DNA of 33,002 bases from an uncultured Mycoplasmatota bacterium (GTDB lineage: Bacteria; Bacillota_I; Bacilli_A; RF39; UBA660): the NCBI GenBank assembly GCA_946494015.1, contig CAMMBL010000006.1:1-33002 (forward strand), in the 5' to 3' direction. Each line of letters starts with the position of its first letter. The stretch's first letter is position 1. Shown one piece after another: positions 3 through 12,225 of this stretch. The notes under the pieces were generated by a model. It searched no databases, was not told where the DNA came from, and was given only the letters and a program-made list of their open reading frames with translations. A program made the translations under genes and the position numbers.

Positions 3-1121
3 ATTAGTTATAATTCTGAAAATAATACAGCTTTTGAAGGAAGTTATATGGAAGAATGGTTAAATGATATAAGTGTAGATGGCTTTTTAGGTAATTTAAG
101 AAATTATGAAAACTTTATAGAAACCAATGCAAAGTGGAATAATGCGACAGAGACACAATTATCAAGTAAGCCAGTTCAAACAACAATGGTAGAAGATGCA
201 GTAGGACTACTTAATATATATGAATATCAATCTAGTTATAGGGGAGCAAGTGAGTCAACAGGTTATTTAAATAATGGACTTGAATGGTGTACTTTAACAC
301 CAATTGATTCATCTTACATACGTTTGGTGCTTGATGATGGCAGTAGAGGTGGCTTCGGCCCTCCTACTATCACATGTGGTGTTCGCCCATCCATAAATCT
401 AAAATCTAGCATTAAAATCGTAGATGGTGATGGAACAATAGATAATCCATATCGTTTAAGTGGAGATAATGATAGTAATTTAAATGGAGTAAAACTAAAT
501 ACAAGATACAGTGGTGAATATATAAAATTTGGAAATGATGAAAATAATTTGTATAGAATAGTAAGTCATGAAAATGGTATAGGAACAAAGATAACTAGTG
601 CTGAACCATTAAAAAGTTTTGGTGAATTTATAGAAAGAACATTTGGAAATAATACTACTTTTTCAAGTAGTAATACTATAGGAGTATTTTTAAATGGAGA
701 ATATTTAACAAGTTATGTAGGTGATGATTATACTAATATGATAGAGGATAATACAATATGGTATCTTGGAACAGTAGAAGATGGTACATCATATAAATTA
801 GCTAAATATACAAATGAAATGGATAATCTCCTAACATCAAGTAGAACTACAGCAAAGGTAGGACTATTACGTTTAGGCGAGTTAATGGCTAGTCAATTTG
901 AGAAAAGTGAAAATAATCAAGATTATTGGTTATTAACACCAGAAAGTACATCTCACGTGCATTATGCGAGCAACTATGGTGGCACGAACAGCGATTATCC
1001 AAATCTTATTTATGGCGTCCGGCCAACTATGAATCTAAAATCTAATGTAGTAATTACAGGAGGAGATGGAACCAAGAATAATCCATTTACTATTGACTTA
1101 GCAACGGACAGTTCTAATTAA
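3..1121 (+). CDS. Modular surface-type protein, C-terminal part (DUF6273/DUF1566-like modules)
   Basis: The frame is open to the left edge of the window (ISYNSENNTAFEGSY precedes the track's ATG at 48), so this is the 3' part of a larger gene and the ATG at 48 is probably internal. Two modules repeat: 'LTP-(about 25 variable residues)-GVRPSINLKSSIKIVDGDGTIDNPY' and 'YWLLTP-(about 24)-GVRPTMNLKSNVVITGGDGTKNNPF'. The 'YWLLTP...GVRP' pattern resembles the DUF6273/DUF1566 domains, which have or are thought to have a C-type-lectin-like fold. Between the modules lie 'GVFLNGEYLTS' and 'WYLGTVEDGTSYKLAKYT'. In related gut bacteria such modules, as I recall them, often follow a prepilin-like N-terminus, so an exported location is likely but not visible here. 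The last residues (TDSSN) and the stop lie inside an IS end. The two variable loops use unusually many C/G-ending codons. Function is unknown; ligand binding is an inference. Confidence 0.7.
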   Translation: MSYNSENNTAFEGSYMEEWLNDISVDGFLGNLRNYENFIETNAKWNNATETQLSSKPVQTTMVEDAVGLLNIYEYQSSYRGASESTGYLNNGLEWCTLTPIDSSYIRLVLDDGSRGGFGPPTITCGVRPSINLKSSIKIVDGDGTIDNPYRLSGDNDSNLNGVKLNTRYSGEYIKFGNDENNLYRIVSHENGIGTKITSAEPLKSFGEFIERTFGNNTTFSSSNTIGVFLNGEYLTSYVGDDYTNMIEDNTIWYLGTVEDGTSYKLAKYTNEMDNLLTSSRTTAKVGLLRLGELMASQFEKSENNQDYWLLTPESTSHVHYASNYGGTNSDYPNLIYGVRPTMNLKSNVVITGGDGTKNNPFTIDLATDSSN

Positions 1122-1202
1122 AGTGTTGAAAAATAAAGGAAGAATAGATATAAAAGTATGATTCACAGTATATGAATTGGTAACAAAGATGATAAAGTGA
1201 AG

Positions 1203-1241
1203 AAAAAGTGTAACTTTTGATACTGAAAAGTTACACTTTTT
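1203..1241. terminator. Strong bidirectional hairpin terminator
   Basis: A perfect 16-bp stem (aaaaagtgtaactttt / aaaagttacacttttt) encloses a 7-nt loop, gatactg. The arms begin with A5 and end with T5, so it can act in both directions: for the upstream gene on the + strand and for the transposase remnant, whose reverse-strand stop lies at 1288. Confidence 0.85.
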
Positions 1242-1287
1242 ACATAAATTAATACCCAATAAAAAAAACTTTAATTCGTTCAATTTT

Positions 1288-2244
1288 TTAGATGTCATAA
1301 AGAATAAAAGAAAATGGTAATCCACTATATTTAGATGAGTTAAAACTAAGATGAAATAATGTTAGTACTGTATTAAATAAAGGCATTACTCTTTTCTTTA
1401 TTCTAACTCCATTTTGAATAAAATGTTTGTGAGTAGTTATTTTTATTTTTTATAACATTTTGTATTTTTAGAGTAATCAGCACCTAGTACAGTTAAGAAA
1501 AGAATTATAAAACAGGTTATAGAATACATTAAAGTAAAATAATTTAATCCAGCTTTAACGACAGACTCTATATAAAATTCATTAGATTTTTGATTTTTAA
1601 ATAAAGTTTCAATAAAGCCAAAATGATAATTATAATCTTTAATGGTTCTTTTAGGATCACCATTAGAATAATCCAGGACTCATCAACATCATATTTTTTA
1701 TCATAAACAAATTTTTAATATTATTTTTTGATCTAATACATAAAGTATGATCTAGTGAATCAATATGTTGCATTAAAAAAATAGATTTATCGGCAAGGAA
1801 TATTAATTATAGGAAGTATGAAAAAAATTAGAAATATAGGAAATGCCTTGTTTACTAACTTTCATAGAAATTATAAAAATTGTATAAGTATCATGCGAAA
1901 ACATATGACGTGAAGTGATATGAACAGTCTTGTCAGAATGCTTAGTTTTATAATTAGAGATAACATATTTAATAATTTAGTTATAAAATTCATAAGGATT
2001 AAATGATTTATTTTTAAAGAAACGTTTAATTCTTTTGATAACAGAATCAAATTGAACTAAAGAAAAATCATCTTTAAGATGTTTTGCGATATCATTTGTA
2101 ACAGAAGATTTAGATAAAATTATACCTATATATAATTTTAAGCTGTGTCTTTCTAATATAAAGATTAACTTTTGATAAAAATTCTTTCATTTTACCTGCG
2201 ATTTCTTTTTCCCCCCTAGTATTATATACTTTATTCATAAACAT
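1288..2244 (-). pseudogene. IS4-like DDE transposase remnant
   Basis: Reading the minus strand from ATG at 2244 gives MFMNKVYNTRGEKEIAGKMKEF, then after frameshifts and stops LSKSSVTNDIAKHLKDDFSL, FDSVIKRIKRFFKNKSFNPYEFYN, 'SRHMFSHDTYTIFIISMKVSKQGI', 'MQHIDSLDHTLCIR', 'GDPKRTIKDYNYHFGFIETLFKNQKSNEFYIESVVKAGLNYF', 'CFIILFLTVLGADYSKNTKCY' and a C-terminus 'MPLFNTVLTLFHLSFNSSKYSGLPFSFILYDI' ending at 1288. These pieces are collinear and look like an IS4-superfamily transposase from AT-rich Firmicutes (recognised from memory). Compared with that memory, parts of the catalytic core seem deleted, so the gene cannot be functional. The 75-aa reverse ORF of the track near 1098-1325 is only a by-product of this region. 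Confidence 0.65.
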
Positions 2245-2462
2245 TCTCTATTCTATTTTGTGATTATAATAAGAATATCAAAAAAGGTTGTTTCTTTCAA
2301 TTTTAAAAGACAAAATGACTTAGATAAACTTTAGCATTTTTATATCATTTTAAAAACTGTCCGGTTATAAGTGCTATTGAATTAAATTAGATAAATGTTA
2401 ATAATTTTTGATAAAAATTTAAATTTAACTAAGTTTTTTTAATGATTATTTTTTTTAGGTGT

Positions 2463-2515: not shown

Positions 2516-4291
2516 ATGCGTGATTTTAAGGAAAAACTAAAATTAGTACCAGAACTTCCTGGTAGCTATCAAATGAAAGATGAAAAAGGATATATCATTT
2601 ATGTTGGTAAAGCAAAAAATTTAAAAAAAAGAGTTAGTAGTTATTTTAGAGGTAATGCTACTGGTAAAACAGCTATGTTAGTTGAAGATATCGCTGATTT
2701 TGAATATATTGTTACAAGTAGTGAATTAGAATCATTAATTTTAGAAATTAATCTAATTAAAAAATATAATCCTAAATATAATATTTTACTTAAAGATGAT
2801 AAAAGTTATCCTTATATAGAACTTACTAATGAATTATATCCTAGATTAAGAGTTGTTAGAAATGTTTCACGTAAAAAGAAAAATCATAAATTATTTGGAC
2901 CATATCCTAATGTTAGTGCTGCAAGAAAAACAGTTAATATGATTAATAGATTATATCCTTTACGTAAGTGTGAAAAATTACCAAAAAAAGAATGTCTTTA
3001 TTATCATATTAATGAATGTTTAGGATATTGTATTAAAAATATAGAACAATCTACTATTAAAGAAATGACCGATGAAATTACTAGCTTTCTAAAAGGAAAT
3101 AGTAGTTTTATAAAAGAAAAGATAACTAAAGAGATGGAAAAAGCTAGTAATAATTTAAATTATGAAAAAGCTTTAGAATTAAGAGAGATGTTAAAAGATA
3201 TTGATATTACTTTAACTAAACAAAAGATAGATTTAAATAAAAACTATAATTTTGATATTTTTGCTTACACTAAAATTGATAATTATTTATCTATTACAGT
3301 TTTCTTTATAAGAGAAGGAATTCTTTTTGGAAGACATCATGAAACATTGCAAACTATTGATAATGAAGTAGATGATATGGAAGAATATATTATACATTTT
3401 TATGAGAAAAATGTCTTAGCTCATGAGATTTTATTACCAGATACATTAGATAGTGAAACATTAAGTGAATATTTAAAGATTAAAATACATGTACCGAAAA
3501 GAGGACCATTAAAAAAATTAGTTGATCTTGCTAAAGAAAATTCAGAAGTAGTATTAAAAGAAGAATTAGAAACTTTACAAAAAGATGATAATGCTAAGAG
3601 AAAAGCTTTAGATGAATTAAGTAAACTATTAGGAGTTAAAACTGTTTCTAGGATGGAATCTTTTGATAATTCTCATTTGTTTGGTACTTATTATGTTGGA
3701 GCGATGGTTGTTTTTAGAGATTTTGAACCATTAAAGAATGATTATCGAAAATATAAAATAAGTACAAGTGTTAAAGATGATTTAAATGCTATGAGAGAAG
3801 TATTATATAGAAGATATTATAGAGCCTTAATGGATAATGAAGTGTTACCTGATTTAATTGTTATGGATGGGGGAGAGTTACAAGTTTCAGTTTGTAAAGA
3901 GATTATTAGTAGTTTACATTTAGATATTCCAATAATAGGATTAAAAAAAGATAGTAAACATAGAACTAATGTAGTTATTGATCAAAACTTTAAAGTATTA
4001 GATATTGCTAGTGATAGTAATCTTTTCTTATATTTATCGAAAATTCAAGAAGAAGTACATCGGTTTGCTATTTATTATCATCGTAATATTAAAAGTAAAG
4101 GATTACTTTCAAGTTATTTAGATTTAGTTAAAGGAATTGGTGAAGTTAGAAAAAAAGAGTTATTAAAAAAATTTGGGTCTATGAAAAAAATGAAAGAAGC
4201 TTCGTTAGAGGAATTAAGTGAAGTGGTAGGAGAGAGTGTGGCTTTAAATTTATATAAAGTATTACATGAGGAGGATGAAAATGTTAAATAA
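2516..4291 (+). CDS. uvrC: UvrABC system protein C (excinuclease subunit)
   Basis: UvrC makes both incisions in nucleotide excision repair after UvrAB damage recognition. The 591-aa product has a GIY-YIG nuclease domain at the N-terminus (PGSYQMKDEKGYIIYVGKAKNLKKRVSSYF, about residues 14-90), a UVR motif near residues 200-235 (EMEKASNNLNYEKALELREMLKDI), the RNase H-like nuclease domain (MESFDNSHLFGTYYVGAMVVF, LIVMDGGELQ) and a C-terminal helix-hairpin-helix tail (GIGEVRKKELLKKFGSMKKMKEA). Length is normal for the family. AGGAG sits 7 nt before the ATG. It leads an operon with the pilin-like gene, mutL and miaA; its 3' end overlaps the next gene. Confidence 0.97.
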   Translation: MRDFKEKLKLVPELPGSYQMKDEKGYIIYVGKAKNLKKRVSSYFRGNATGKTAMLVEDIADFEYIVTSSELESLILEINLIKKYNPKYNILLKDDKSYPYIELTNELYPRLRVVRNVSRKKKNHKLFGPYPNVSAARKTVNMINRLYPLRKCEKLPKKECLYYHINECLGYCIKNIEQSTIKEMTDEITSFLKGNSSFIKEKITKEMEKASNNLNYEKALELREMLKDIDITLTKQKIDLNKNYNFDIFAYTKIDNYLSITVFFIREGILFGRHHETLQTIDNEVDDMEEYIIHFYEKNVLAHEILLPDTLDSETLSEYLKIKIHVPKRGPLKKLVDLAKENSEVVLKEELETLQKDDNAKRKALDELSKLLGVKTVSRMESFDNSHLFGTYYVGAMVVFRDFEPLKNDYRKYKISTSVKDDLNAMREVLYRRYYRALMDNEVLPDLIVMDGGELQVSVCKEIISSLHLDIPIIGLKKDSKHRTNVVIDQNFKVLDIASDSNLFLYLSKIQEEVHRFAIYYHRNIKSKGLLSSYLDLVKGIGEVRKKELLKKFGSMKKMKEASLEELSEVVGESVALNLYKVLHEEDENVK

Positions 4292-4733
4292 AAAAGCTTA
4301 TACTATAGTAGAATTATTAGCTAGTATTGTTATATTAGGACTTTTAGCTACTTTAGCATATATGGGTGTATCTAAGTATTTTAATAAGGCTTTAGATACT
4401 ACTTATAAGAATTTTGAAGAAAATATTAAAACAGCTGCTACTAATTATTTACTTGATAATAGTAATTATATACCTAAAAAGAATGGAAGCTTGGTAATAG
4501 ATGCTAGTAAACTTATTTGTGATGGATATCTTGATGATTTAGAAGATCCTAAGAATGAGAGTAAAACATGTAATATTGATAGTTATGTTATTGTTAAAAG
4601 AGATAATGATAATAATTTAGATATGACTTATCAAGCATGTTTAAAATGTAGTGATTATCAAAGTGATATATGTAGTACATCTATTAATAATATAGAAAGA
4701 CTAAGAAAAGATGAAGCATGTGAGGTAGAGTAA
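4281..4733 (+). CDS. Prepilin-like protein (type IV pilin / pseudopilin N-terminus)
   Basis: The N-terminus MLNKKA|YTIVELLASIVILGLLATLAYMGV is a class III prepilin signal: a short basic leader, a likely cleavage after Ala, Glu at mature position 5 and a hydrophobic helix. The protein would be cut and N-methylated by a prepilin peptidase and assembled at the membrane. The soluble part is small, acidic and contains six cysteines, which may form disulfides. I prefer ATG 4281 over the track's 4266, because AGGAGG at 4269-4274 is 6 nt upstream of it and the earlier ATGs lie in or next to that Shine-Dalgarno. The start overlaps the uvrC end, and the stop overlaps the mutL ATG, so it is translated within a repair operon. 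No other pilus assembly gene is in the window. Exact role is unknown. Confidence 0.85.
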   Translation: MLNKKAYTIVELLASIVILGLLATLAYMGVSKYFNKALDTTYKNFEENIKTAATNYLLDNSNYIPKKNGSLVIDASKLICDGYLDDLEDPKNESKTCNIDSYVIVKRDNDNNLDMTYQACLKCSDYQSDICSTSINNIERLRKDEACEVE

Positions 4734-6537: not shown

Positions 6538-7413
6538 ATGATAATTGCAATATTAGGACCAACAGCAGTTGGAAAAACGGCTTTAAGTATTTCTCTTGCT
6601 AAGAAATATAATGCTGAGATAATTAATTTTGATTCAATGCAAGTTTATGAAAAATTAGATATTGGTACTGCTAAAGTTACTAAGCAAGAGATGGATGGTG
6701 TTACTCATCATCTTTTAAGCTATGTTAAATTAGATGAAAATTATTCTGTTTTTGATTATCAGAAAAAAGCAAGAGAAGTACTTGATAAATTATTAAAAGA
6801 GAATAAGAATGTTATTTTAGTAGGAGGGACAGGTTTATATTTAAAAGCAACTTTATATGATTATAAATTTATTGAAAATACTACTAATAAGTTATATGAT
6901 GATTTATCTTCAAGTGAAATTTTAGATAGAATAAAAAAATATGGGATTGATAATTTACCTCATATAAATAATCGTAAGAGATTAGTTAGATTATTAAATA
7001 AATTAGAAAATGGTGAAGAAATTAGTACTGATGGTAATAATTTATTATATTCTAATGTTTATTTTATTGGTCTTACTACTGATAGAAAGGTTTTATATGA
7101 TAAGATAAATAAAAGAGTTGATGCTATGCTTGATAATGGTTTAGTGGAAGAAGTAGAATCTTTAAAAGATTATTTTAATAATTCGAAAGCATTAAATACA
7201 GGGATTGGTTATAAAGAGTTTATTCCTTACTTTGAAAATAAGAAAACAAAAGAGGAAGTTAAAGAGGAGATAAAGAAGAATTCTAGGCATTATGCTAAAA
7301 GACAATATACTTTTTTTAAACATCAATTTGATATTGTGTGGTTTAATACAGATTATAATAATTTTGACAATACTGTTAAGGAAGTAATTAATTATTTAGA
7401 GAAAAATAACTAA
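6538..7413 (+). CDS. miaA: tRNA dimethylallyltransferase
   Basis: MiaA transfers a dimethylallyl group to the N6 of A37 in tRNAs reading codons that start with U. The N-terminus IIAILGPTAVGKTALSISLAKK is the P-loop; NFDSMQVYEKLDIGTAK and VGGTGLYLKATLYD are the family's substrate-binding stretches, and the C-terminal RQYTFFKHQFD is also characteristic (RQxTWF-like, with Phe for Trp). At 291 aa it is slightly shorter than usual (about 300-315), as expected in a compact genome. It is the last gene of the uvrC operon. Confidence 0.96.
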   Translation: MIIAILGPTAVGKTALSISLAKKYNAEIINFDSMQVYEKLDIGTAKVTKQEMDGVTHHLLSYVKLDENYSVFDYQKKAREVLDKLLKENKNVILVGGTGLYLKATLYDYKFIENTTNKLYDDLSSSEILDRIKKYGIDNLPHINNRKRLVRLLNKLENGEEISTDGNNLLYSNVYFIGLTTDRKVLYDKINKRVDAMLDNGLVEEVESLKDYFNNSKALNTGIGYKEFIPYFENKKTKEEVKEEIKKNSRHYAKRQYTFFKHQFDIVWFNTDYNNFDNTVKEVINYLEKNN

Positions 7414-7463
7414 GGTTTAGCATAAAAAAATTATTTGCATAAATTATATAGGAGTTGAGTTTT

Positions 7464-8072
7464 ATGTATAAATTGCCTATATTACCTTATTTATTTCAAG
7501 ATTTAGAACCATATGTTGATATACATACAATGGGACTTCATTATCATAAACATGAGATGAATTATTTAAATAAGTTAAATTTGTTATTAATAAAGAATAA
7601 TTATGATTATAAGTATCCTATTGAAGAATTAATTTATCATATAGATGAGTTTCCTATAGAGGATAGAGAAGATATTTTATATAATTTAGGAGGAGTTTTA
7701 AATCATAATTTATATTTTAAGAGTATGAGTCCTAAAAGAGTATTACCAAGTGATAAGTTAAAAGATGATATAGAAAGTAAATATGGAAGTGTTGATAAAT
7801 TCCTTTTAGAGTTTAAGAATAAAGCTCTTGAATTAAAAGGGGTTGGTTATACTTTTTTAGTAGTAAATGATAATGGTACTTTAGATATTATAAATTTATC
7901 TAATCAAGATTTACCCCAATTATTAGGATATATTCCGCTATTAAATATGGATATGTGGGAACATGCTTATTATTTAAATTATAAGAATGAAAAAAGTAAT
8001 TATATAGATAACTTTTTTTTGATAGTAGATTTTACTAATGCTAATAGTTTATATAATAGTTTGATGAAGTAG
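7464..8072 (+). CDS. Superoxide dismutase, Fe/Mn family, divergent
   Basis: The product (202 aa from the ATG) aligns along its length with Fe/Mn superoxide dismutases: LPYLFQDLEPYVD, LHYHKHEMNYLN, GGVLNHNLYF, LSNQDLPQLLG and DMWEHAYYLNYKN. All four metal ligands are present (H26, H81, D163, H167 here), as are the second-sphere Q148, H30 and Y34. Several tryptophans usual around the active site and C-terminus are Phe or Tyr (GYTFLV for GWAWLV, NFFLIVDF for EFWNVVNW), and the usual HH pair is HY. Activity is therefore likely but not certain. The track starts at a TTG at 7455; ATG 7464 is better because AGGAG ends 9 nt upstream of it. Metal choice cannot be read from the sequence. No strong promoter is visible; it may be read from the miaA side. 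Confidence 0.88.
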   Translation: MYKLPILPYLFQDLEPYVDIHTMGLHYHKHEMNYLNKLNLLLIKNNYDYKYPIEELIYHIDEFPIEDREDILYNLGGVLNHNLYFKSMSPKRVLPSDKLKDDIESKYGSVDKFLLEFKNKALELKGVGYTFLVVNDNGTLDIINLSNQDLPQLLGYIPLLNMDMWEHAYYLNYKNEKSNYIDNFFLIVDFTNANSLYNSLMK

Positions 8073-8146
8073 ATAGTACTATTTATTTTAGGTTATTATA
8101 GTTAAGAAACGATTATTATAGAAAATATAAGATACATTAGATATTA

Positions 8147-8176
8147 AAATCTATATATTATGATAATATAAGATTT
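8147..8176 (+). terminator. Possible weak terminator after the superoxide dismutase gene
   Basis: The arms aaatct-a-tatatta and taatata-agattt form a 13-bp stem with one bulged A and a 3-nt loop. The stem is almost pure A/T, and T-rich sequence follows after a few bases (agataagtttttaatttttt), so termination strength is doubtful. Confidence 0.35.
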
Positions 8177-8270
8177 AGATAAGTTTTTAATTTTTTATTA
8201 ATGGTTAAAAAGATTGTAATTACTATTACTAATTAATGTACGATAGAATAAATATATAAATATTTAATTT

Positions 8271-8297
8271 GGGCACTGAAAAACAGTGCTCTTTTTG
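8271..8297 (+). terminator. Rho-independent terminator
   Basis: The arms gggcactg and cagtgctc form an 8-bp stem (one G-U pair) with an A5 loop, followed at once by ctttttg. It lies about 200 bases after the superoxide dismutase stop and just before the decayed YhcG-like gene. Confidence 0.8.
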
Positions 8298-8321
8298 TAT
8301 ATATAGAAATGGAATATTATT

Positions 8322-8621
8322 ATGAGTACAAAAGTATTAGAAACAAATTAAAAAGTTGTTAATAGTATAGAAGATATTATTACCACTATTAAAAATAAGG
8401 TAGTATATCAAATTAATAATACTTTAGTAAAAATTTATTAAGAGATTATTACTTTCTAATGGCAAAATAAATAAAAAGAAAGTATATGATTTATCTAAAA
8501 AAAACAAGAGATAAATGAACCTACTGATATATTGGAAAATCATTATGTATTTGAATTTTTAGGAATAAAAGAAGAATTAATTGATGAAGTAGAAAGAACA
8601 CTTAAAGAAGTTAATAATTAA
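8322..8621 (+). pseudogene. YhcG/DUF1016-type nuclease remnant
   Basis: From ATG 8322 the translation MSTKVLETN*KVVNSIEDIITTIKNKVVYQINNTLVKIY*EI resembles the N-terminal DUF1016 domain of YhcG-type PDDEXK proteins ('...QVNSTLVQTYWNIGK...'). After a gap and frame changes comes LLLSNGKINKKKVYDLSKK and then EINEPTDILENHYVFEFLGIKEELIDEVERTLKEVNN, which resembles the later 'KPEDIIKDPYVLEFLGL' stretch. Stops, frameshifts and a large internal deletion make it non-functional. Identification rests on remembered family motifs. It implies past acquisition of a defence- or mobile-element-type gene. Confidence 0.55.
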
Positions 8622-8691
8622 GATAAAATGTTTATTTGTAAAATCATTTTTTTCTGTTAATAATATTAGTGTAAACTAAATGTCCTTTTAT

Positions 8692-8749: not shown

Positions 8750-9706
8750 ATGCTTTTAGATATAGTTTTTTTGTTAATAGGTTTTGTTATTATTATTAAA
8801 TCATCAGATGTTTTAGTAGATGCCGCATCATCTTTGGCTTTAAAATTAAGAGTTCCTAAGATGTTAATTGCTTTAACAATTGTTTCTTTTGGAACTTGTG
8901 CTCCTGAAGTTGCTATTTCTTTTAGGAGTATTGCAAATGGTGATGGAGTGATGGCTTTTGCTAATGTTATAGGTAGTTCGATTGTAAATGTTTTCTTGAT
9001 TATAGGACTTGCAAGTTTTATAAGACCTATTAAAGTAAGACATGCTACTATTAAAAAAGAATTACCATTATTATTAATTGTTACTACTGCTTTTTCTATT
9101 CTTATGTTAGATAGTGTTTTTAATCCTTTAACTGATAATATTTTTTCAAGACGAGATAGTATAATTTTGATTTTGTTGTTTTGTATGTTTCTTTTATATT
9201 TAGTAGGAATGTTATTTAAACGTAATAAAAAGGATGAAGAAGTAGAGAAGGGTAAATATTCTCCTTTTGTTTCGTGTGTACTTTTATTAATTACAATAAT
9301 TTTAATAATTTATAGTAGTGATTTAATAGTAAATTCGGCTAAATCTATTGCTAAGGGGTTAAATATAAGTGAAAAGGCTATTACAATGACAGCGATTGTT
9401 ATTGGAACAAGTTTACCTGAGATGATAATGACAGTGATAAGTGCTAAAAAGGGTGAGTTTGATATGGCTATTGGCAATATTATTGGGACTAATATTTTTA
9501 ATATATGTATAGTATTAGGATTACCTATTTTAATTTTTGGTAATATAGCTTTAGAGGGTTTTGGGTTTATTGATATACTTGTTGTCTTTTTATCTTCTTT
9601 TCTTTTATTTATATTTGCAAGGAGTGAGAGAGTAGTTAGTAAAAAAGAAGGAATTATTATGCTTTTAGTATTTGTACTTTATTATGTATATATGTTATTC
9701 TTTTAG
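8750..9706 (+). CDS. Sodium/calcium exchanger (CaCA family, YrbG-type)
   Basis: This 318-aa membrane protein has the two inverted alpha repeats of Ca2+/cation antiporters: 'SFGTCAPEVAISF...NVIGSSIVNVFLIIGL' in the N-terminal half and 'VIGTSLPEMIMTV...GNIIGTNIFNICIVLGL' in the C-terminal half. About ten hydrophobic segments and a short charged cytoplasmic loop (KRNKKDEEVEKGK) between the halves fit the fold. The first signature has Cys where Ser is usual (GTCAPE for GTSxPE). The protein probably exports Ca2+ in exchange for Na+ or H+; the ion is not determinable here. It is a single-gene unit with its own promoter. Confidence 0.92.
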   Translation: MLLDIVFLLIGFVIIIKSSDVLVDAASSLALKLRVPKMLIALTIVSFGTCAPEVAISFRSIANGDGVMAFANVIGSSIVNVFLIIGLASFIRPIKVRHATIKKELPLLLIVTTAFSILMLDSVFNPLTDNIFSRRDSIILILLFCMFLLYLVGMLFKRNKKDEEVEKGKYSPFVSCVLLLITIILIIYSSDLIVNSAKSIAKGLNISEKAITMTAIVIGTSLPEMIMTVISAKKGEFDMAIGNIIGTNIFNICIVLGLPILIFGNIALEGFGFIDILVVFLSSFLLFIFARSERVVSKKEGIIMLLVFVLYYVYMLFF

Positions 9707-9744
9707 TATATTAAACTAAGGTGCTACAAAATGGAAAGAACGAT

Positions 9745-9846
9745 ATGAATTTAGAAATAAAAATTTGGAATTGGAAAAAAGTTACTGTACAAAGTGAAAT
9801 ACTTGATGATTTGTTAATGTTTTTAAAAAAAGTTAGAATATACTAA
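9745..9846 (+). CDS. Possible 33-aa small ORF, doubtful
   Basis: The 263-base gap before ftsK contains MNLEIKIWNWKKVTVQSEILDDLLMFLKKVRIY. No convincing Shine-Dalgarno precedes it and I recognise no family. It may be the remnant of a larger gene. The rest of the gap shows only A/T-rich sequence and the ftsK promoter. Confidence 0.2.
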   Translation: MNLEIKIWNWKKVTVQSEILDDLLMFLKKVRIY

Positions 9847-9940
9847 TAAGAAAAGTATTAATGCTAGTAATTTTATTAATTAATCTAATAAAAAGTGATG
9901 TCAAATATTTGTTAAAATATTTAAAATATCTTTTGGTTTA

Positions 9941-9949
9941 TGCTATACT
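9941..9949 (+). promoter_or_regulatory. Extended -10 promoter of ftsK
   Basis: TGCTATACT is an extended -10 element. It contains most of the track's ATG at 9940, so that ATG cannot be the translation start. No clear -35 is visible; extended -10 promoters need it less. Confidence 0.55.
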
Positions 9950-9969
9950 TAAAAGTAGAAGGTGAAGTT

Positions 9970-12225
9970 ATGGCAAAAAGAAAGAAAAAGAAAGAAACTA
10001 AAAAAGGTTTTGCTCATGCTACAGAGCTTTATGGAGTGTTACTTGTTTTAGCAGCAATTCTAGGTATTGGTAGATATGGTCCAGTGGGAGGGATGATCGC
10101 TTCTTTTGCAATTTTTCTTGTTGGAGTATTTTATAATGTTTTTCTAATTGTATTATTAGTATTAGGGGCTTATTTAATTATAAATAGAGAGTGGCCTAAT
10201 TTATTTACTACAAAAATGCTGGGACTTTATTTATTAGTAATTGGACTTTTAGTATTAATGCATGAAAACTATATTTTACAAAATGATAGTAATGCTATTA
10301 AAGTCTTTAGTGAAACAGTAGATCAGTTAATTAATTCTTTTTCAAATGTTATGAAAGGGGCAAGGCCTGATGCTATTGGTGGAGGTATAATTGGTTGTAC
10401 TTTTGGAGTATTATTTATGTTACTTTTTTCATATAAAGGAATGCAAATAATCGCTTGGGCTTTAATAATTTTAGGATTTTGTTTATTTACAGGCTTTTCT
10501 ATTGTGGATTTTGTTAAGAATAGTGCTAAAAAAGCAAAAGAGAAATTGCCTAAGAAAGATAAAAATGAAGGAAAAGAAGAAGATAAAAAACCTATTATTA
10601 CTGGTAATGAAGAAGTAGCAATGGGAGAAATAAGAGATGATGATAAGAAAATTATTATTTCTAGTATTGATGAATTAACTAAGGCTAGAGTTAATGATAA
10701 TAATGAATCTAAGGATATTGGTTGTGATAATGATAATAGTAAGCCTAAAGTAAAACATAATTATGTTTTACCACCTATTACTTTACTTGATCAACCTAAG
10801 AAAAAGAAAAATAGTGTTAATCAAAGTCAAATTGAAAAGAATATAGAGATATTAGAGAAAGTTTTAAAAGATTTTAATATTATTGGTAAAGTAGTAGAAG
10901 TTCATATTGGTCCTACTGTTACTCAATATGAATTAGAACTTCATTCTGGGACAAAAGTAAGTAAACTTTTAAGTATTCATAGAGAAATTGCCCTTGCTAT
11001 TGCTACAAAGGATGTTAGAATTCAAGCTCCTATTCCTGGTAAGAATACTGTAGGTATTGAAATTGCTAATAGAGAAACTAGTCCAGTTAGTTTTAGAGAA
11101 GTATTAGAAAAAGTTCCTAAATCACTTGATGGGGCGAAATTACTTTGTCCTTTAGGTAAAAATATAATGGGTAATGTTATTTGGTGTGAGATTAATAAAA
11201 CACCCCATCTTTTAGTTGCTGGTTCGACTGGTAGTGGTAAATCTGTTTGTATTAATGGAATAATTTGTTCTATTTTAATGAGAGCGAAGCCTGATGAAGT
11301 TAAACTTGTTATGGTTGATCCTAAAAAAGTAGAACTTTCTGGTTATAATGGGGTACCTCATTTAATGAGGCCTGTTGTAACTGATCCTAAAGAAGCAAGT
11401 GTAGCTTTAGGAAAAATTGTATCTGAAATGGAAAGACGATATGATACTTTTAGTGAAACTAAGACTAAAAATATTGCTACTTATAATGATTATGTTGAGA
11501 AGAAGAATAAAACATTACCTAAAGATGAACAGATTAAGAAAATGCCATTTATTGTGGTTATAATAGATGAGTTAGCTGATCTTATGTTAGTTGCTAGTAA
11601 AGATGTAGAAGCATCTATTATGAGAATTACACAAATGGCACGTGCTGCTGGTATTCATTTAATTATAGCAACTCAAAGACCTTCAACAGATGTTATTACA
11701 GGAGTTGTTAAAGCTAATATTCCAAGCCGTATTTCTTTCGCTGTTTCTAGTAGTATTGATTCAAGAACTATTCTTGATATGACAGGAGCTGAAAAACTTT
11801 TAGGTAAAGGAGATATGTTATTCTTACCAATGGGAGAGGCTGATCCAGAACGAATTCAAGGTGCTTTTATTTCTGATGATGAGATTAAGCGAATTATAGA
11901 TTATACAATTGAACAACAGAAAGCTGAATATGATCAAGCATTTATGAATTTATCAGGTGATAGTGAAAAATCTGCATCACAAAAAGAAGATATGCATCAA
12001 AAGGAAGAATATGATGATCCTTTATATAACGAAATAGTGGAATTTGTTATTGAAACAGGTAAAGCTAGTGCTTCTTTATTACAAAGAAGATTTAAACTTG
12101 GTTATAATAGAGCGGCCAGAATTATTGATTTATTAGAAGAAAGAGGAATTGTAGGTCCTCCTAATGGTTCTAAGCCAAGGGAAGTATTAGTTAAGCTTGA
12201 TGATAATAATAATGAAGAATATTGA
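9970..12225 (+). CDS. ftsK: DNA translocase FtsK/SpoIIIE
   Basis: FtsK is a membrane-anchored ATP-driven DNA pump that clears chromosomes from the closing division septum. The N-terminus is very basic (MAKRKKKKETKKG) and is followed by about four transmembrane segments within residues 15-185, then a charged linker (about 185-280). The motor has Walker A GSTGSGKS at 418-425, Walker B FIVVIIDELADLM near 530, and the ARAAGIHLIIATQRPSTDVITG signature. The C-terminal winged-helix gamma domain (DDPLYNEIVEF... LQRRFKLGYNRAARIIDLLEERGIVG) would read the orienting KOPS-like sites. I use ATG 9970, preceded by AGGTGA, giving 751 aa; the track start at 9940 lies in the promoter. Confidence 0.96.
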   Translation: MAKRKKKKETKKGFAHATELYGVLLVLAAILGIGRYGPVGGMIASFAIFLVGVFYNVFLIVLLVLGAYLIINREWPNLFTTKMLGLYLLVIGLLVLMHENYILQNDSNAIKVFSETVDQLINSFSNVMKGARPDAIGGGIIGCTFGVLFMLLFSYKGMQIIAWALIILGFCLFTGFSIVDFVKNSAKKAKEKLPKKDKNEGKEEDKKPIITGNEEVAMGEIRDDDKKIIISSIDELTKARVNDNNESKDIGCDNDNSKPKVKHNYVLPPITLLDQPKKKKNSVNQSQIEKNIEILEKVLKDFNIIGKVVEVHIGPTVTQYELELHSGTKVSKLLSIHREIALAIATKDVRIQAPIPGKNTVGIEIANRETSPVSFREVLEKVPKSLDGAKLLCPLGKNIMGNVIWCEINKTPHLLVAGSTGSGKSVCINGIICSILMRAKPDEVKLVMVDPKKVELSGYNGVPHLMRPVVTDPKEASVALGKIVSEMERRYDTFSETKTKNIATYNDYVEKKNKTLPKDEQIKKMPFIVVIIDELADLMLVASKDVEASIMRITQMARAAGIHLIIATQRPSTDVITGVVKANIPSRISFAVSSSIDSRTILDMTGAEKLLGKGDMLFLPMGEADPERIQGAFISDDEIKRIIDYTIEQQKAEYDQAFMNLSGDSEKSASQKEDMHQKEEYDDPLYNEIVEFVIETGKASASLLQRRFKLGYNRAARIIDLLEERGIVGPPNGSKPREVLVKLDDNNNEEY

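Follow-up and report, generated by a model that had tools for sequence, protein, structure and literature searches.

The window, meaning the whole stretch of DNA that was analysed, is the entire contig C6 (33,002 bases) of a metagenome-assembled genome (MAG) of the genus Candidatus Onthousia (Bacilli), which comprises 1.23 Mb in 78 contigs and is 94% complete with 2.8% contamination. The gene at its 5' end encodes a protein with two modules that matches Pfam DUF6273 over two stretches (5.2e-7, 30.1 bits, cut-off 23.5), and it is truncated on its 5' side by the contig end, with loss of the N-terminus. The features of this part of the window, with template-derived variable regions abbreviated as VRs, are the following:

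3 to 1121, plus strand: 3' part of the gene for the two-module DUF6273 protein, an open frame of 372 amino acids
304 to 387, plus strand: VR1, template-derived variable region of module 1, the most decayed (z 3.9)
945 to 1023, plus strand: VR2, template-derived variable region of module 2 (z 4.7)
1097 to 2371, minus strand: decayed insertion sequence (IS) abutting the target gene, with pieces 83-90% identical in locus L090

The modules share conserved borders, as the first-pass annotation had described: LTP-25 residues-GVRPSINLKS (294-407) and LTP-24 residues-GVRPTMNLKS (933-1043), both in the plus-strand frame 3-1121. The C/G-ending codons that it quoted from the inner stretches are also present, and their enrichment over the rest of the frame has been measured. 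The fraction of G/C-ending codons (GC3) is 0.32 (9/28) in loop 1 (Fisher p=0.006) and 0.44 (12/27) in loop 2 (p=6.5e-5), where the remainder of the frame has 0.117, and none of 5113 windows of 28 codons from 11 other C6 genes attains the GC3 of loop 2. A C-type-lectin fold is predicted for the modules from their DUF6273 membership and from a published AlphaFold/DALI model of a phage DUF6273 target, which resembles a C-type lectin (PMC10743442). AlphaFold2 models of module 2 built from two alignments were of low confidence (mean pLDDT 44 and 39) and their fold search gave no usable match, while searches against solved structures, both by profile and by sequence, gave nothing usable.

The window gene is one of about 28 paralogous loci in this genome (L001-L030 range) and is 64-68% identical to its nearest paralogues, among them the target gene adjacent to the template repeat described below. 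Since such loci cluster at contig ends, 26 of the 28 lying at most 600 nt from one, the window starts inside a paralogue. The DUF6273 family fragments the assembly, and the true copy number may exceed about 28. Full-length paralogues carry a hydrophobic stretch in their N-terminal segments, which match no profile and suggest membrane anchoring. A pilin-like protein with an N-methylation motif is encoded at 4266-4733 of the window. At a locus of a relative (L119:10530-12191), two DUF6273-like modules are joined in one protein to an N-terminus of similar pseudopilin type, and this fusion suggests pilus-like display of such modules elsewhere.

Diversity-generating retroelements (DGRs) of bacteria reverse-transcribe an RNA template and make errors only where the template has an A. 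The first-pass annotation had proposed that the loops look like targets of such an element, and had stated that the window holds neither a reverse transcriptase (RT) nor a template repeat (TR). The latter is correct, and both sit on contig C1 of the same genome, in which a search revealed exactly one RT, beside Avd, a non-coding TR and a paralogue of the window gene. The assignment of C6 and C1 to one organism is based on binning, the shared family and the template relation. The complete DGR, composed of a two-VR DUF6273 target gene, TR, accessory ORF, Avd and RT, occupies C1:46555-50533. In the numbering of locus L032, which corresponds to C1:40000-58000, its parts are:

6556-8487, same strand as the rest of the DGR: target gene, a two-module paralogue of the window protein
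about 8580-8661, same strand: TR, non-coding repeat of the target's loop
8941-9165, same strand: small ORF
9271-9612, same strand: Avd (phrog_3206, 1.7e-5)
9581-10534, same strand: RT (phrog_1423, 6.7e-73; RVT_1, 1e-20)

The RT lies 1.3 kb downstream of the paralogue, followed by housekeeping genes. Its sequence contains the motifs IGNYTSQ and YMDD, signatures of DGR-RTs, and profiles and motifs together place it putatively in the DGR clade. As for Avd, the match to Pfam bAvd (0.081) is below the cut-off; the copy in L090 matches phrog_3206 at 3.3e-7. The sequence just 3' of the TR is conserved in 16 loci of the genus and folds well, with little covariation and a single compensatory pair. No strong hairpin was found downstream of the core or window VRs; in BPP-1, a stem-loop downstream of the VR is reported to be helpful and not strictly required (PMC12875486). 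Between TR and Avd, an ORF of 112 amino acids (L032:8941-9275; L090:2131-2469) is kept in about 16 Onthousia DGRs; it gave no family match in the profile search, and it is split by a frameshift in the genome of the window and in L082. It is a candidate new accessory protein, or else its frameshift is a candidate sign of an impaired DGR, so that even the C1 core may be impaired.

Close copies of the RT are found in many species of the genus, mostly at 79-88% identity, and a pattern of conserved flanks recovered 15 TRs of the genus, the resident one included. When the VRs beside TRs are pooled over 13 genomes of the genus, 301 of 612 template A bases are changed, compared with 118 of 1385 other bases (p=4.6e-88), and several of these VRs have non-A changes at 0/58 or 0/59 sites. 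The core VRs of the genome itself differ from their TR at 10/24 and 14/25 A sites, and at 3/53 and 8/55 non-A sites. Copies differing mainly at template adenines, as envisaged for a DGR, are found in the TR-VR pairs of this genome and in the 13-genome pool. Change concentrated at template A is the defining signature of a DGR, and it is present in both loops of one protein.

This signature extends beyond the C1 locus. Fifty-five loops were extracted from the genome and compared with the templates, taking as the null synonymous recodings of the same peptide with a matched number of G/C-ending codons. Seventeen loops, from nine genes, beat these GC3-matched recodings (z 3.9 to 8.1), while the remaining 38 show no such excess, with values spread about zero (z<=2.7), and serve as negative controls; the TR score of the loops goes with their GC3 (rho 0.75). 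Codon-shuffle z-scores were dropped as a test in favour of synonymous recoding, since loops with no other template sign reached z 8 through protein resemblance. Counts restricted to template-invariant columns (those constant among four related TRs), ungapped and with no fitted scoring, are free of the bias of the template alignment, whose scoring lets a template A mismatch freely and favours A changes, and they give 103/210 A against 46/360 non-A columns changed in ten VRs of the genome (p=5.7e-21). In this pool, 39 of the 46 non-A changes run from G/C to A/T.

Both window loops are nearer to the templates than their GC3-matched recodings. The best template score of VR1, 49, is weakly above this null (32.7, maximum 44; z 3.9), in an alignment that requires three single-base gaps, and VR2 reaches z 4.7; against host-codon recodings, the values rise to z 8.2 and 9.3, respectively. 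In the ungapped comparison of VR2 with the four related TRs, 11/21 invariant A columns are changed versus 7/36 invariant non-A columns (p=0.012), most of these seven non-A changes being from G/C to A/T, and its 3' end, GGCGTCCGG, is identical to the 3' end of the TRs of G019 and G027. The proposal that the loops are DGR targets is upheld by the preference of the VR2 changes for template adenines and by the proximity of both loops to the templates. Judged by sequence, both window loops are template-written and since drifted.

Non-A mismatches to the present TR amount to 16/56 in VR1 and 16/52 in VR2, and the 3' end of VR2 (GGCGTCCGGC) differs from that of the TR (GGGGTTCGCC), so that the gene fits the resident TR poorly at non-A sites and at the 3' end, where a current target would match. 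Because of this mismatch, current hypervariation of the window loops is doubtful, and the gene has probably been retired as a target. The explanation considered the probable one is that it is a remote target of the DGR family, written by an earlier template and now retired and drifting. As in known DGRs, the Avd/RT complex would make cDNA from the TR RNA, inserting random bases wherever the template has an adenine, and this cDNA would replace the VR, yielding NNC/NNT codons in the ligand-binding loop of a surface-anchored protein. The window copy would stem from an earlier state of the template and is unmatched by today's TR at sites that include the 3' end; its VRs would be drifting towards the high A+T content of the host genome, with the reading frame retained. 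The family looks like one actively rewritten gene accompanied by a repertoire of fixed variants.

Three paralogues on different contigs (L002, L007, L009) have between them six loops that depart from the present TR at the same seven non-A sites; the TR-adjacent gene lacks almost all of these differences. A TR bearing this seven-site signature was not found in the assembly with a hand-made reconstruction from the loops as the query, and the sequence closest to the reconstructed template, at 92% identity, is the TR that G019, a different species, carries. In other species, the loops of remote genes often fit the TR of another species better than their own; one loop of a remote protein of G010 fits the resident TR (3/55 non-A), and the other has a better fit to the TR of a different species (80 vs 53). 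This suggests that templates are replaced or exchanged between lineages, the main alternative being a second, unassembled TR. A succession of templates is put forward tentatively, with the balance inclined slightly against it: in this genus, one TR at a time would rewrite the large dual-VR surface family, the TR core would be replaced or exchanged, and the paralogues would keep loops of extinct templates, serving both as a record of past templates and as a store of fixed variants. A further observation concerns the TR of G017 (L067), in which a stretch is altered to AACTTTTGGCTTCGCG, absent from other TRs and from its own VRs; the VRs of G017 may predate this change.

A second TR or DGR, present in the organism and missing from the assembly, could have written the window loops and those with the seven-site signature, which is judged unlikely. 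It would have parallels in G019, with two TRs, and in G013, with two close RTs, and the fragmentation of the MAG, disrupted by this very family at 26 of 28 loci, means that a further TR could be absent from the assembly. However, the genome has a single RT, a second TR was found neither by BLAST with the present TR nor by the conserved-flank pattern nor with the reconstructed shared older template, and the non-A changes of VR2 are AT-biased, as drift predicts. It is decidedly improbable that the C1 DGR still diversifies the window gene in trans, tolerating mismatched VR ends. DGR loci that act in trans have been reported (PMC10907252), L004, on another contig of the same genome, departs little from the present TR (at 4/48 and 6/48 non-A sites), and the frame of the window gene is intact; yet recent rewriting should leave a match at non-A sites and at the 3' end, as in most core VRs, and this is where the window VRs depart from the TR. 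The loops could also differ because paralogues recombine or shuffle cassettes, with no reverse transcription involved; cassette-shuffled surface proteins were the alternative offered by the first-pass annotation. Many paralogues share conserved borders, and a plausible exchange among them would spread template signatures, but shuffling does not predict change concentrated at template A, and the paralogue loci showed no silent partial cassettes, which leaves this option superfluous and very hard to sustain. Lastly, that the G/C-ending codons reflect chance or a translation-related bias in an ordinary lectin-like loop has practically no standing, even for loops this short and with VR1 less certain than VR2, given that no 28-codon window of the 11 other genes equals loop 2 and that GC3-matched recodings score far below the real loops against DGR templates.

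The reading of the window gene as a retired remote target has precedents. In Treponema denticola, whose DGR has remote targets, the 'excessive mutations' in some of them were called suspicious, and a remote VR of isolate SP32 is closer to the TR type of another isolate than to its own (PMC4891356). As in the genome of the window, one RT and one TR serve several dispersed target genes, although T. denticola has two to seven targets, whereas the genome of the window has about 28 paralogues, nine with template-derived loops, and differs in its two VRs per target and its DUF6273 modules. DUF6273 targets of DGRs are also known from gut phages, with the VR at the C-terminal end of the domain (PMC11792537, PMC10743442); those are phage proteins, whereas the Onthousia family is chromosomal, among housekeeping genes. 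A prophage origin was considered and dropped, as scans of viral contigs found nothing related to the target module, and the RTs that they yielded were all distant (at most 37%). Cyanobacterial DGR variable proteins include dispersed paralogues, one of which retains a remnant of TR-VR homology with no RT close by, and exchange of DGR components has been proposed for them (PMC7517822); their CLec modules are borne on kinases and caspase-like domains, in contrast to the N-terminal membrane-anchor-like segments and two lectin-like modules of Onthousia. In Thiohalocapsa PB-PSB1, DGRs have several targets, some in trans, and multiple VRs per target (PMC10907252), but that genome has several DGR loci, the Onthousia genome one RT and one TR, and the target architecture differs. 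A survey reported multiple VRs in 28.6% of DGRs, and a few genomes in which a single TR comes with dozens of VR copies (PMC6642488). DUF6273 targets, remote targets and leftover VRs have thus already been described; what is new is how large the family is, that its VRs are doubled and that it keeps a record of lost templates. A single-template DGR serving about 28 paralogues, mostly with two loops, would give an uncultured gut-type bacterium with a genome as small as 1.2 Mb a large and diversified set of surface proteins, and its loops can be ranked by their distance from the present template, which bears on how targets are recruited, retired and fixed, and on whether templates are replaced.

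The left end of the IS beside the window gene appears to supply the last codons of the gene (LATDSSN). Its relative in L090 has an intact transposase-like ORF of 349 amino acids. A weak match to DDE_Tnp_1 (1.1e-4) is just under the cut-off, and the likely terminal repeats, read by eye, are CTTAnnAnCGGACAGTT. In G031 (Ca. Onthousia faecavium), this near-relative (L090:340-1830) separates the target gene from the tail of a TR whose 5' part is missing, and G031 would be a case of natural template loss. The two species have a like IS at the same end of the gene.
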